NCBI RefSeq assembly: GCF_030542965.1
Contig: NZ_JAUAOA010000010.1
Span: forward strand, 1-64,000
Source of the DNA: Azotosporobacter soli
GTDB taxonomy: Bacteria > Bacillota > Negativicutes > SG130
Direction of reading: 5' to 3'
DNA length: 64,000 nt
The translations under genes and the position numbers were made by a program. Shown here piece by piece: positions 18,657 through 51,262 of this stretch (position 1 is the stretch's first letter; each line of letters begins with the position of its first letter). The notes under the pieces are model-generated. The model searched no databases. It was not told where the DNA came from and was given only the letters and a program-made list of their open reading frames with translations.

Positions 18657-18796
18657 TGCCCTTCACCTCCAATATCTTTTACGACAAAATAAAAGTGCGG
18701 ATGGAAAGTCCACCCGCACCAAAGAATATCAACTCTTTGAATGACCACATCGACAAATCTGCCATGCGGTGAGAAGCGGATGGCTTCTACTTTGCA
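18657..18796 (-). promoter_or_regulatory. L20-type leader with attenuator upstream of infC
   Basis: A leader of about 140 bases separates the promoter from infC. It ends in an intrinsic terminator, GTGCGGGTGGA paired with TCCATCCGCAC (18695-18719) followed by TTTTATTTT, 35 bases before the infC ribosome binding site. The position and layout match the firmicute rpl20 leader, where L20 binding favours termination. The L20-binding fold itself was not modelled. Confidence 0.8.
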
Positions 18797-18802
18797 TAAG
18801 TA

Positions 18803-27730: not shown

Positions 27731-27751
27731 CAGAAACACACCTCTCTTTCT

Positions 27752-27876
27752 TTATCGCCTCCGGAGTTAGCTGACGGGTTCGGGCTAAAGAGAAGTAGTA
27801 GAAATTTGCCCTTTCGCGATGCGAATTCACCCCAATTATTGGTTCCCCCGTACCTTATCATAGGATTCGGCGTATT
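27752..27876 (-). promoter_or_regulatory. ydaO/yuaA-type cyclic di-AMP riboswitch
   Basis: The minus strand carries the conserved ydaO features: CGCCGAATCC at the 5' side, GGGTGAATTCGC in the middle, AGGGC pairing region, and the highly conserved 3' block CCCGAACCCGTCAGCTAAC followed by CCGGAGGCG that closes P1. The class binds c-di-AMP and commonly controls cell wall hydrolases and osmolyte or K+ transport genes; the downstream gene here is a wall enzyme. No intrinsic terminator is visible between the aptamer and the start codon, and the ribosome binding site begins about ten bases after P1. Confidence 0.93.
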
Positions 27877-27880
27877 CAAT

Positions 27881-27909
27881 ATTTTACTATATATTTTTTC
27901 ACAAGTCAA
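27881..27909 (-). promoter_or_regulatory. promoter of the c-di-AMP riboswitch transcript
   Basis: TTGACT (27904-27909), 17 bases, TAAAAT (27881-27886) on the minus strand, just upstream of the aptamer. Confidence 0.75.
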
Positions 27910-31478: not shown

Positions 31479-31537
31479 AAAAAACAGAAGAAGCCTGCAA
31501 AGCACTTCGTTGCTTTGCAGGCTTCTTCTGTTTTTTT
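31479..31537. terminator. bidirectional terminator between tpx and glutamine synthetase
   Basis: A very long stem: AAACAGAAGAAGCCTGCAAAG arms (about 24 base pairs) around ACTTCGT, flanked by A- and T-runs. It abuts both stop codons. Confidence 0.95.
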
Positions 31538-33434
31538 AAATCAAGTTACGTTTGTATTCTTGGTAAGCAATGATCAGCTGACCCATTTTTTCTGTCATAA
31601 GGATTTGCAATTCCGAGGCTTTCTCATAGTCGCAGCTAGTAATCGCATCTTTAATCTGCGTAAAAATCGATTTTTGCGCACCACTGTCTTTAGCAAGTTC
31701 ACTACGCAAAGATTGAACAGCCTTCCAGTTGGTTGCATCCACTTCATTGCCAGCATCGGCTAAGCTGCAAGCTTTGCAGCTTCTTACCACTTCAAGATTA
31801 TCCGGGATAATGCGAGTCAGAATTTCTGTTTTCCAGCGAACCAGTGCGCCTGCAACAAAAGCGTCAATAATAGCACTGCTGAATGCCTTGCTTGCCGTAA
31901 TCGCAGCTACTTTTTCCGGATATTGAGAAATTCCTTGCATGTTTTCCCAAACAGTAGCAGGTGGTTTACCAAACAAACGCGCCCGTTCCTCATCACTGTA
32001 ATCATCAAACACGTCATGCTCACTACGATACGCACGATTTTTGTCTAGATAGAATCCGGTCTCGCCAGCTTCCTTCGACAACTCAGCAAGCAACCCGTTC
32101 GTGTCCTTGCCCGATTCGACAGCTGCTTTTACGCCATCCAATACGGTCAGATAAATCGCCGCCAATGCAATGTATGTATTGGTGAACGGATTCGGTGAGC
32201 GCATTTCAAAACGCGTTGCGCGCGGATTGTTGATGTCTCGAACCAGACCGGCCAAAATTGTACGGTTACGCGAGGGGACTTCCGGAGTGTGTCCAAGCGA
32301 CGTAACGATGCAAACAGGCGCTTCAAAACCTGGCTTTAGACGATTCAACGAATCATTGGTCGAAGAAATGAACGGATTGACTACTTCGTAGTGCTTCAGA
32401 ACGCCCATAATTGCGCCATAACCAACTGCACTCAAGAAATCCTTTTTCATGTCTTCCGGCGAAAACAAGTTAACGACTTTGCCGGATTTTAATTTCGCTG
32501 CCAGACCGATGTGCGTGTGTTCGCCGTTGCCGGCAACGCCGATGATCGGTTTCGCTTTAAAATTGACCTCCAACCCGTTTGCACGGAAAACTTCTTTTAC
32601 GACAATTCGGGCTTGCAATTCATTGTCGGCCGTTTGCAAGCCGGTCGAGAATTTCCAGTCGATTTCGAGTTGTTCCATAACGTGACTCAGTCGACCGCCT
32701 TCATCAATTTGCGCTTTTACGCCGCCGACTTCCTTATGCCCCATTTCCGGCTCCAAACCGTACTTTTCAAGCATGATGACGGCTTGTTCCATCGCCGTCC
32801 GAACTTCGCCGCGCGTACGCTGCCAATATTGTTCCTGCATGACTTGTGATGCTGACAATTCGCCTACTTCCGCACGGTTAGCCGGAGTTTTTACCCAAAA
32901 TTCCAATTCTGTTGCCGACGTGAAGATGATGTCTTCGATTTCGCTGGCATCAATATGACTGAGACCGGCAACTTTGGGATTGCTTTTGAACAAGGCCATC
33001 AGCTCGTCCTTTGCATACGCCAAGCTGTCCGCCAACACAGCACGCGAGTCAACGCGCACGCCGTTATGAACCAAGAAGCATGGAATGCGCAGCGTGCCGA
33101 CCGGTTTGCCGGTTTCTTCATCGAAATGTTCATGATTGTAATCGACGAACCAGTTCACATCCATATCGGCCAGCATGTCCACTTTGGCATTGTTCAGCGT
33201 TGCAATGCCGGTCAGCACAACCGACGACCCGTCGGTTTGAACTGCGCCGCCATTGACAAAGGAATCCATGTCGTCTAGGAACAACGACATCGGGATTTTT
33301 TCATCCGTATCATTGCCTGCCAAGTCGATGCCGACCAGCGAAACGAATTTGATTTCGGAATGATTTTTTAACAACTCCACCAATTCTTGCTTTTGATATT
33401 TACCCGCCGGAACCAGATACAACAACTCACTCAT
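31536..33434 (-). CDS. glutamine synthetase, large form
   Basis: 632-residue glutamine synthetase with the catalytic beta-grasp and Gln-synt_C domains: metal-binding TSATELEFWV, the PMGHKEVGGVKAQ-like EMGHKEVGGVKAQ segment, the ATP-site GVAGNGEHTHIGLA and the late NRTILAGLVRD...RATRFEMRSPNPFTN block with the conserved Arg. It makes glutamine from glutamate, ammonia and ATP. It is longer than classical GlnA (about 440-470) and shorter than GlnN (about 700), with an extended C-terminus. ATG at 33434 follows GGAGGGG. It is transcribed behind an attenuator-like leader. Confidence 0.9.
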   Translation of the reverse strand: MSELLYLVPAGKYQKQELVELLKNHSEIKFVSLVGIDLAGNDTDEKIPMSLFLDDMDSFVNGGAVQTDGSSVVLTGIATLNNAKVDMLADMDVNWFVDYNHEHFDEETGKPVGTLRIPCFLVHNGVRVDSRAVLADSLAYAKDELMALFKSNPKVAGLSHIDASEIEDIIFTSATELEFWVKTPANRAEVGELSASQVMQEQYWQRTRGEVRTAMEQAVIMLEKYGLEPEMGHKEVGGVKAQIDEGGRLSHVMEQLEIDWKFSTGLQTADNELQARIVVKEVFRANGLEVNFKAKPIIGVAGNGEHTHIGLAAKLKSGKVVNLFSPEDMKKDFLSAVGYGAIMGVLKHYEVVNPFISSTNDSLNRLKPGFEAPVCIVTSLGHTPEVPSRNRTILAGLVRDINNPRATRFEMRSPNPFTNTYIALAAIYLTVLDGVKAAVESGKDTNGLLAELSKEAGETGFYLDKNRAYRSEHDVFDDYSDEERARLFGKPPATVWENMQGISQYPEKVAAITASKAFSSAIIDAFVAGALVRWKTEILTRIIPDNLEVVRSCKACSLADAGNEVDATNWKAVQSLRSELAKDSGAQKSIFTQIKDAITSCDYEKASELQILMTEKMGQLIIAYQEYKRNLI

Positions 33435-33480
33435 TACATACCCCTCCAGTTTAATTTTATGATGAAAATGAATTACCGCT

Positions 33481-33544
33481 GGAAAAACAGAGAACTCCCG
33501 TTGTCTCAACCAAGTTGGTGATACACGGGAGTCGCCATTGACTC
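33481..33544 (-). promoter_or_regulatory. attenuator with competing hexaloop hairpin upstream of glutamine synthetase
   Basis: On the minus strand, ACTCCCGT and ACGGGAGT (33494-33532) form a terminator stem with an inner ACC/GGT helix, followed by TCTCTGTTTTT. Just 5' is a hairpin GAGTC-AATGGC-GACTC (33529-33544) whose 3' arm overlaps the terminator by four bases, so the two cannot form together. The six-base loop has A at position 1 and G at position 4, as in RNAs bound by ANTAR antiterminators. Only one such hexaloop is obvious, whereas known ANTAR sites have two. Confidence 0.6.
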
Positions 33545-33567
33545 TAAATATTATTACTATGTTACGT

Positions 33568-33596
33568 ATTATAACTTTATCATAATCAATTGTCCA
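33568..33596 (-). promoter_or_regulatory. glutamine synthetase promoter
   Basis: TGGACA (33591-33596), 17 bases, perfect TATAAT (33568-33573) on the minus strand, giving a leader of about 125 bases. The remaining gap 33597-33832 is A+T-rich and shows nothing further that I can support. Confidence 0.75.
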
Positions 33597-33832
33597 GCAG
33601 TTTTTTTCATAAATCCATGTATACGTGTAACAAATTTTCTTATATTTCTCCTTTGATCGTACTTGGCTTTTGCAATGGCTGTCTTTTAACAGCGGACATC
33701 GTTTCTATAAAAATTAGCTGTCGATAGTTTTGTATTCATTATGCATATCTATGTGCGTTAATTATCAATCTAAGGCGATTTTTTGCGTCTTATTCGTTTT
33801 TTATTTCACACTAAAGTATGATAATATATTGT

Positions 33833-33855
33833 TTGAGTAGTTTGAAACTACTCAA
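33833..33855. repeat. perfect 23-bp palindrome before the asparaginase gene
   Basis: TTGAGTAGTTT, a central G, then AAACTACTCAA: perfect 11-base arms, 26 bases upstream of the asparaginase start and just after the TATGATAATATA region that may be its -10. It could be a dimeric repressor operator or a 5' untranslated hairpin. No poly-T follows, so it is not a terminator. Confidence 0.7.
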
Positions 33856-33880
33856 TATTCTAATTAAAGGAGTTGGTTTT

Positions 33881-34960
33881 ATGAAGAAACGGTACGTCAC
33901 ACTTCTCTCTCTCGTCTGTCTCCTCATGTTCAGCATGCAAGTCGGTTTTGCAGCTGAAACCCCGGCCAAACTGCCCAACGTGAAAATTCTGGCCACCGGC
34001 GGAACGATTGCAGGTTCCGGCGCCAGCAGCACGACTACGGTCGGCTACACCGCAGCAGTGTTCCCGGTTGATGCATTGATCAACGGCGTTCCTGAATTGA
34101 AGCAAGTTGCCAATGTCAGCGGCGAACAGATTTCGCAAATCGCCAGTGAAAACATGACGAACCAAGTTTGGCTGAAACTGGCCAAACGCGTCAATGAACT
34201 GCTCGCTTCCGATGATGTAGACGGAATTGTCGTAACACACGGCACCGACACGATCGAAGAAACGGCCTATTTCTTAAATCTTGTTGTAAAAAGCAACAAA
34301 CCGGTTGTCATTGTCGGCGCAATGCGCCCGCCTACGGCGATGAGCGCTGACGGCGCAATGAACCTGTACAACTCCGTAATTCTTGCCGGCAGCAAAGAAG
34401 CGCGCGGCAAAGGCGTCATGGTTTGCATGAACGATGCAATCAACGGCGCACGTGAAGTAACCAAGACCAACACCGCATTGCTCGACACCTTCCGCGCACC
34501 GGAACTTGGCTATCTCGGTTATATGCAAGCCGGTAAAGCGCATTTCTATAAAGAAAGCACTCGCAAGCACACCACGAAATCCGAATTCGACGTACGCAAC
34601 CTGACAGATCTGCCACAAGTCGATATCGTATATGAACATGCCAATGTCAGCCGCGTAGCTGTTGACGCCTTTGTCGCCGCTGGAGCAAAAGGCATTGTTT
34701 GCGCGGGCGTCGGCGACGGCAGTCTGGCAAACCCGGTCAAAGACGCGCTGGTTGATGCGCAAAAACAAGGCATTGCGATCGTCAGAAGTTCGCGTACCGG
34801 CAACGGCATCGTTGCACGCAACGGTGAAGCAAATGATGATGCTCTGCACTTCTCGGCTTCTGATACACTGAACCCGCAAAAAGCTCGCATCCTGCTGATG
34901 CTGGCACTGACTAAAACCAATGATCCGGCTGAAATTCAACGGATTTTCTGGGAATACTAA
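33881..34960 (+). CDS. ansB: type II (exported) L-asparaginase
   Basis: 359 residues. Signal peptide (1-24, MKKRYVTLLSLVCLLMFSMQ then VGFA), then the asparaginase fold with nucleophilic Thr42 in ATGGTIAG, and Thr122-Asp123 in THGTDTIEETAYFL; substrate loop and Lys-containing second half are present. It hydrolyses asparagine to aspartate and ammonia in the periplasm, giving a nitrogen source; the divergent neighbour is glutamine synthetase. AAAGGAG lies ten bases before ATG. Confidence 0.95.
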   Translation: MKKRYVTLLSLVCLLMFSMQVGFAAETPAKLPNVKILATGGTIAGSGASSTTTVGYTAAVFPVDALINGVPELKQVANVSGEQISQIASENMTNQVWLKLAKRVNELLASDDVDGIVVTHGTDTIEETAYFLNLVVKSNKPVVIVGAMRPPTAMSADGAMNLYNSVILAGSKEARGKGVMVCMNDAINGAREVTKTNTALLDTFRAPELGYLGYMQAGKAHFYKESTRKHTTKSEFDVRNLTDLPQVDIVYEHANVSRVAVDAFVAAGAKGIVCAGVGDGSLANPVKDALVDAQKQGIAIVRSSRTGNGIVARNGEANDDALHFSASDTLNPQKARILLMLALTKTNDPAEIQRIFWEY

Positions 34961-38692: not shown

Positions 38693-38781
38693 TGGTGCGA
38701 GCGGCCGGAATCGAACCGGCACGGGTATCACTACCCGACGGATTTTAAGTCCGTTGCGTCTGCCAGTTCCGCCACGCTCGC
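38693..38781 (-). tRNA. tRNA-Leu (TAA)
   Basis: Class II tRNA with long variable arm; anticodon stem CGGA/TCCG, anticodon TAA, acceptor GCGAGCG/CGCTCGC, CCA encoded. Last gene of a five-tRNA operon. Confidence 0.96.
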
Positions 38782-38837
38782 ATTGCAGATAGGCTATTGC
38801 CTAGGCATCCTCTATATTAAACATATAAATTTAAATT

Positions 38838-38912
<75 letters not shown>

Positions 38913-38919
38913 TCGAATA

Positions 38920-38994
38920 TGGAGCGGAAAAGGAGATTCGAACTCCCGACCCTCGCCTTGGCAAGGCGATGCTCTACCGCTGAGCTATTTCCGC
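38920..38994 (-). tRNA. tRNA-Gly (GCC), copy 1
   Basis: Anticodon stem TCGCC/GGCGA with loop TTGCCAA giving GCC, acceptor GCGGAAA, CCA encoded. Identical to the copy at 40915-40989. Confidence 0.96.
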
Positions 38995-39000
38995 AAATGA

Positions 39001-39076
<76 letters not shown>

Positions 39077-39080
39077 AAAA

Positions 39081-39157
39081 TGGCGACCCTGAACGGATTT
39101 GAACCGTCGATCTCCGCCGTGACAGGGCGGCATGTTAGACCGCTACACCACAGGGCC
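39081..39157 (-). tRNA. tRNA-Asp (GTC), copy 1
   Basis: Anticodon stem CCGCC/GGCGG with loop CTGTCAC giving GTC, acceptor GGCCCTG, discriminator G, CCA encoded. First gene of the operon; identical to the copy at 40993-41069. Confidence 0.96.
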
Positions 39158-40835: not shown

Positions 40836-40911
40836 TGGCAGGGGCAGAAGGACTTGAACCCTCAACCAACGGTTTTGGAGACCGCTACTCTACCAATTGA
40901 GCTATACCCCT
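40836..40911 (-). tRNA. tRNA-Trp (CCA)
   Basis: Acceptor AGGGGTA/TGCCCCT, anticodon loop CTCCAAA giving CCA, discriminator G, CCA tail encoded. Confidence 0.96.
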
Positions 40912-40914
40912 AAA

Positions 40915-40989
40915 TGGAGCGGAAAAGGAGATTCGAACTCCCGACCCTCGCCTTGGCAAGGCGATGCTCTACCGCTGAGCTATTTCCGC
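40915..40989 (-). tRNA. tRNA-Gly (GCC), copy 2
   Basis: Identical to the gene at 38920-38994. Confidence 0.96.
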
Positions 40990-40992
40990 AAA

Positions 40993-41069
40993 TGGCGACC
41001 CTGAACGGATTTGAACCGTCGATCTCCGCCGTGACAGGGCGGCATGTTAGACCGCTACACCACAGGGCC
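40993..41069 (-). tRNA. tRNA-Asp (GTC), copy 2
   Basis: Identical to the gene at 39081-39157. First gene of the three-tRNA operon. Confidence 0.96.
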
Positions 41070-51125: not shown

Positions 51126-51143
51126 TCAACAGCGCGGCGGCAT

Positions 51144-51228
51144 AAAAAAATACCTTCTTGGCGCGTGCGGCACAAGAAGGCATAGAAAATTCCCTTGAAG
51201 TATGTCTCCTTTCCGGCCTCACAGGACC
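51144..51228 (-). promoter_or_regulatory. PyrR-type attenuator of the pyr operon
   Basis: On the minus strand GGTCCTGTGAGGCC (51215-51228) matches the PyrR binding consensus ARUCCNGNGAGGYU at 12 of 14 positions. It is followed by a terminator, CCTTCTTG/CAAGAAGG (51153-51180) with TTTTTTT (51144-51150). With UMP bound, PyrR would hold the anti-antiterminator and end transcription. pyrR itself is not in the window. Confidence 0.85.
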
Positions 51229-51262
51229 AGTTTAAAGGCGCTATTCAGTTTCCTTGAGTAGT

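Follow-up and report, generated by a model that had tools for sequence, protein, structure and literature searches.

A single-hexaloop hairpin that overlaps the terminator before glutamine synthetase is a probable ANTAR-controlled attenuator in Negativicutes

Why should two RNA hairpins be needed for ANTAR-dependent antitermination, if the protein dimer holds only one of them? Structural work has left this question open, and current models rest on a few dual-hairpin leaders. According to Ramesh et al. (PMC3369931), the ANTAR target consists of two hairpins and deletion of the first abolishes induction; antitermination by EutV is described as requiring both (PMC3369931, PMC8934654). In the crystal structure of Walshe et al. 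2022 (PMC8934654), the EutV dimer contacts one hexaloop, and the minimal motif is redefined there as one. Could a single hexaloop suffice at a natural leader? The leader of a glutamine synthetase gene of Azotosporobacter soli, which we analysed within a window of 64,000 nucleotides (the whole stretch of DNA under analysis), raises this question. Judged from sequence, it is very probably a transcription attenuator for which a single hexaloop is enough and which answers to an ANTAR response regulator. It seems that the hairpin catches what is probably a nitrogen-linked regulatory protein and decides read-through into glutamine synthetase, here and in relatives.

The locus lies on the minus strand. 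A sigma-70-type promoter (TGGACA-17-TATAAT, 33568..33596) agrees with the consensus at 11 of 12 positions and puts the inferred transcription start at about 33561, which gives a leader of about 127 nt and bears out the preliminary description, with its leader of some 125 bases behind a strong promoter. The -10 box is followed after 23 nt by the hexaloop hairpin (33529..33544), our proposed ANTAR site and antiterminator, composed of GAGTC (33544-33540), the loop AATGGC (33539-33534) and GACTC (33533-33529). An intrinsic terminator (33483..33533) follows, with the 5' arm GACTCCCGT (33533-33525), the 3' arm ACGGGAGTT (33501-33493) and, downstream of the latter, CTCTGTTTTT with a T run at 33487-33483. 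The 3' arm of the hairpin and the 5' arm of the terminator have 33533-33529 in common, and the sharing of an arm before the T run, as first described, is thereby confirmed. The overlapping structures stand 95 nt upstream of the start codon (33434). A Shine-Dalgarno-like GGAGGGG (33441..33447) precedes the regulated gene, a glutamine synthetase of 632 aa (31536..33434) that matches PF00120 with an E value of 5e-39 and TIGR00653 with 4e-40, the latter under that model's own cut-off. We also noticed a perfect 10-bp inverted repeat (TTGAGTAGTTTGAAACTACTCAA, 33833-33855, plus strand), a possible operator or leader hairpin, just before a divergent gene (33818-34960, plus strand) that resembles a secreted L-asparaginase, a name given from the translation only.

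How would such a leader fold? Taken alone, the hexaloop hairpin has a computed energy of -5.2 kcal/mol and the terminator of -19.7 kcal/mol; the leader up to the T run reaches -22.7 kcal/mol when free and -16.6 kcal/mol with the hexaloop hairpin forced. The energies favour the terminator, which should therefore win unaided. By itself the folding of the leader is mildly unusual (z -1.6). No Rfam family matches the leader at gathering level, and relaxing the threshold yields chance-level matches to unrelated families; the covariance model of the glutamine riboswitch (glnA RNA) has no match at this leader, and a search of a phage collection with this region found nothing. Elsewhere on the minus strand of the window lie a strong c-di-AMP riboswitch match (98 bits, 27741-27882), a PyrR binding site (51143-51242) and an L20 leader (18683-18798), both just over threshold, and two tRNA clusters (38696-39157 and 40839-41069), some members of which score identically, which suggests local duplication.

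Is the hairpin kept in relatives? Relatives of the glutamine synthetase are present in 354 of the 380 genomes of the class. We read 90 leaders from class genomes, a set weighted toward near relatives, 80 from named records, and 30 more from selected genomes, including one second gene copy; the first two sets share species (e.g. G219 and L146), so that the 170 leaders, and the 120 considered below, are not all independent. For each pair of letters at loop positions 1 and 4, we counted, among the 170 leaders, the hexaloop hairpins whose 3' side begins a terminator. A1 and G4, the letters to which attention had first been drawn in AATGGC, occur in 99 of the 170, followed by G1/G4 in 10 and by every other letter pair in at most 6. 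It is because of this comparative evidence, and not because of the folding, that we judge the feature not to be chance. Named records with the hairpin include Selenomonas, Mitsuokella, Schwartzia, Pectinatus, Anaerovibrio, Propionispira and Veillonella, and in the relatives the hairpin is preceded by similar promoters of the form TAGACA/TGGACA...TATAAT. From the hairpin to the 3' arm of the terminator, 123 leaders have a median of 26 nt (range 7-90). The finder returned no match in the leaders of Sporomusa ovata (L122) and of G298, G299 and G300; in G299 and G300, inspection by eye shows a hairpin of similar form with a single U-U mismatch. Two leaders, L193 (-275) and G080 (-256), fall outside the counting range of -220 to -60 and were scored as without hairpin; also outside it is a false match in the ANTAR-less genome G061, a G1/C4 loop in a terminator upstream of the promoter. 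As for the genes themselves, the glutamine synthetase frame of L227 (G041) runs on across two TAG codons, for which errors or an altered code may account, and G321 (L225, L231) has a second, neighbouring copy without the hairpin behind the first.

The preliminary description had staked its reading on covariation of the stem among orthologues, and covariation is what we found. An alignment of 65 rows, about one per genus, scores 0.448, compared with 0.141 for shuffled versions, none of which reached the observed score in 500; slid structures score 0.221 at most. The finder required G at loop position 4, A or G at position 1, a stem of three or more pairs (the inner three) and two G-C pairs, and the constancy of these features in the alignment is by construction. 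Free of its conditions are the closing pair (C-G in 65/65 rows), the third pair (G-C in 64/65), loop A2, the alternative second pairs (U-A in 35 rows, G-C in 30) and the outer two pairs, which take several forms; on the evidence of these rows, the stem changes in sequence while its pairing is kept. That the gene is unregulated, behind a terminator that acts constitutively and a hairpin that is there by chance, is extremely improbable: a short stem and unexceptional folding would suit it, but the loop letters are conserved, the stem changes are compensatory, and the same architecture returns at amt genes, as described below.

Could a first hairpin of the kind known from other ANTAR sites have been overlooked? 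The dual stem-loop definition of 2012/2021 comprises a six-base loop with A1 and G4, a second hairpin at a linker of 2-25 nt (as given in PMC8164766), overlap with a terminator, and an ANTAR protein in the same genome. The loop, the overlap and the protein are all found here; the second hairpin is absent in the window, and with one hexaloop only the site is not of the tandem form, while one G4 hexaloop on a short stem is what the minimal motif, as put forward in PMC8934654, describes. That only one hexaloop is evident, as noted at the outset, holds here and in nearly all relatives. In the interval from promoter to hairpin, 2 of 120 leaders, which are two records of a single species, have a further A1/G4 hexaloop on three or more pairs. 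A1/A4 (23 leaders) and A1/T4 (11) are commoner there, so that A1/G4 first hairpins are not enriched. The ability of the finder to see a first hairpin rests on these two records, L101 (1-460) and L146. Their species, one of the Selenomonadaceae, has, 31 nt before the usual hairpin, an extra 10-bp stem with the A1/G4 loop AACGGC, possibly an intermediate between one- and two-hairpin sites.

This strong hairpin, together with the 21 of 120 leaders that have some G4 hexaloop upstream when any first letter is allowed, is what speaks for an ordinary ANTAR site with two hairpins, the first of which escaped us, either because transcription starts farther upstream or because that hairpin departs from the A1/G4 rule. 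We consider this very improbable. Besides the rarity of A1/G4 in the interval, the window has a single A-x-x-G loop from promoter to stem, which would be closed by a C-A mismatch, and the promoters themselves bear on the matter. Among 103 leaders with a recognisable promoter, identified by consensus only, the -10 box ends 19-28 nt before the stem in 75 and 6-11 nt before it in 11; in the latter, the hairpin would begin at about the first transcribed base. As far as consensus promoters tell, then, some leave no room for a first hairpin.

A single-hexaloop attenuator of the ANTAR type calls for a regulator. An ANTAR response regulator had been suggested as something to look for in the genome, and one is encoded there: a single match over the Pfam cut-off (E 5.2e-20), with the ANTAR domain joined to a receiver domain and a PAS/HisKA_2 kinase encoded by the adjoining gene. 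By sequence, the nearest solved structures are 1s8n and 6wsh, the latter of which we take to be EutV. The former is Rv1626 of M. tuberculosis (PMC8934654), and the roles of EutV residues in RNA contact are those described in the same paper. With EutV numbering placed on our alignment by ourselves, the RNA-contact residues R142, K143, K149, E160 and M172 are the same in every one of the 31 ANTAR proteins that we compared; at K147 all 31 have R, R175 is kept in 30 and Y164 in 28 (F in 3), the R168 position is mostly Q, and the N173 and R177 positions are variable.

Do regulator and hairpin occur together? An ANTAR match over the cut-off was obtained in 272 of the 380 class genomes. In 50 named genomes tested, the hairpin is present in 18 of 25 with ANTAR and in 0 of 25 without, many of the latter belonging to a Quinella-like rumen group (Fisher p 5e-8, ancestry ignored). 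For the 119 class genomes with leaders read, the counts are 73 of 103 with ANTAR, among them a probably false match in G289 (-215, no promoter), and 3 of 16 without (Fisher p 1e-4, ancestry ignored). All 16 ANTAR-positive genomes of the selected batch carry the hairpin. We also searched 140 glutamine synthetase loci, with flanks of up to 1.5 kb, for the regulator, and in two of them (L171 and L147) glutamine synthetase is followed immediately, and in the same orientation, by an ANTAR gene, 14 nt and 256 nt, respectively, from the end of one match to the start of the other.

Is ANTAR then the reader of the hairpin, or a mere passenger beside another RNA-binding protein or a ligand? The three genomes with hairpin and without ANTAR are G293, which is 88% complete, and G238 and G239 (L202, L088), single-contig genomes of one genus (g62). 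In G238 and G239, hairpin and terminator are kept with the loop AGCGTT, and there is neither an ANTAR match nor an amt match; so far, they are true exceptions to the co-occurrence. Such exceptions, and a loop that starts with G in 4 of the 65 rows of the alignment, speak for a passenger role. Against it stand the absence of the hairpin from all 25 ANTAR-less named genomes and from the ANTAR-less genomes read in the lineages g2, g7 (G020), g16, g20, g47 and g66, as well as the two loci with the ANTAR gene directly behind glutamine synthetase and the lack of any Rfam match to the leader, the glutamine riboswitch included. We regard a reader other than ANTAR as very unlikely. The support for the ANTAR reading is comparative, and on that footing the reduced, single-hexaloop ANTAR site proposed in the preliminary description is supported.

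Thirty of the 103 ANTAR-positive class genomes lack the hairpin before glutamine synthetase. Could the regulator have other targets? A hairpin-only model ranks the window site, which belonged to its training set, first genome-wide with 30 bits; the second-best match, weak by itself (21.4 bits, E 0.13), lies before an ammonium transporter gene (amtB) and has its own terminator. We read 30 amt leaders from 42 genomes with a match. A1/G4 units are found in 28 of the 30 and units with other letter pairs in at most 3; two or more A1/G4 units, commonly 45-54 nt apart and each with its own terminator, occur in 20. An A1/G4 hexaloop lies 2-25 nt upstream in 5 of 49 amt units, mostly on A+T stems. G071, G075 and G314 have ANTAR and A1/G4 amt units, yet no glutamine synthetase hairpin, and their amt units may explain part of the mismatch between regulator and hairpin. 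In other genomes, similar units precede genes for P-II (L311), sodium:alanine symporters (L266, L276), an amino-acid permease (L317), a solute-binding protein (L326), an aminotransferase (L321), an AbgT transporter (L256), AroM (L278), a PdtaS-like kinase (L328) and a protein without Pfam match (L329); apart from the symporters, these non-amt units are single cases. Many weak matches inside coding regions were set aside, and of 20 match regions read, 6 have a convincing overlapping terminator (L311, L317, L321, L326, L328, L329), 8 have none, and 6 are weak or inside genes. The sensor kinase gene of L328 lies behind its own hexaloop-terminator unit, an arrangement in which the regulator system may control itself.

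How might one hexaloop decide between termination and read-through? We infer a course of events that covers regulator binding, its dependence on phosphorylation, the direction of control and the signal. By default, the leader would fold into the terminator and transcription would halt before glutamine synthetase. The partner kinase would phosphorylate the ANTAR regulator in response to a signal that is presumably nitrogen status, and the phosphorylated dimer would clamp the single AATGGC hexaloop as the RNA leaves RNA polymerase. The 5' arm of the terminator would then be kept in the hairpin, its first five pairs denied, and polymerase would read through. The median 26 nt between hairpin and terminator 3' arm may provide the time window for binding. 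One way in which a single site might suffice, and here we speculate, is that a promoter-near hairpin forms once the RNA emerges.

It is likely that the Negativicutes share an ANTAR nitrogen regulon built on one hexaloop per terminator, in which the 'recruitment' hairpin, so far taken as obligatory, is missing and its place may be filled by a short and fairly constant spacing from the promoter. ANTAR control of glutamine synthetase is in itself not new, since predicted ANTAR targets in earlier work (PMC3369931; PMC3369936) already include nitrogen genes, among them those for glutamine synthetase and ammonium transporters; that ANTAR proteins control nitrogen genes had been named as known when the leader was first described. 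New, it appears, is the class-wide set of one-hexaloop attenuators: in the open-licence literature, supplementary tables excluded, we found no earlier report of single-hexaloop control or of ANTAR control in Negativicutes. Searches that require two hairpins will have missed such attenuators, and with many natural examples at hand the two-hairpin question becomes directly testable. For a class with many gut, rumen and oral bacteria, the set further provides a candidate circuit of nitrogen control.

How does the leader compare with known systems? With the dual-hexaloop ANTAR RNAs (E. faecalis eut/EutV, nasF/NasR, amiE/AmiR) it shares the short stem, the six-base A1/G4 loop and a 3' side within the terminator. 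Those RNAs have two hairpins a few bases apart, both needed, whereas here only the terminator-overlapping one is present; NasR is reported to bind one hairpin weakly, with an affinity of about 12 uM (PMC7496416). Like the motif of Walshe et al., the site has one hexaloop; these authors anticipate single sites where no moving polymerase limits the time for binding (PMC8934654), while the single sites described here lie on terminators. The glnA RNA, which accompanies genes for glutamine synthetase, P-II and ammonium transporters and sometimes occurs in tandem (PMC2864571), is likewise associated with glutamine synthetase, but differs in that the present leader has no Rfam match. Finally, the RAT antiterminators of the SacY/BglG type also rely on one protein-stabilised hairpin that competes with a terminator, but, as described in PMC3369936 and PMC3369931, they depend on another protein domain and have internal loops within the stem.
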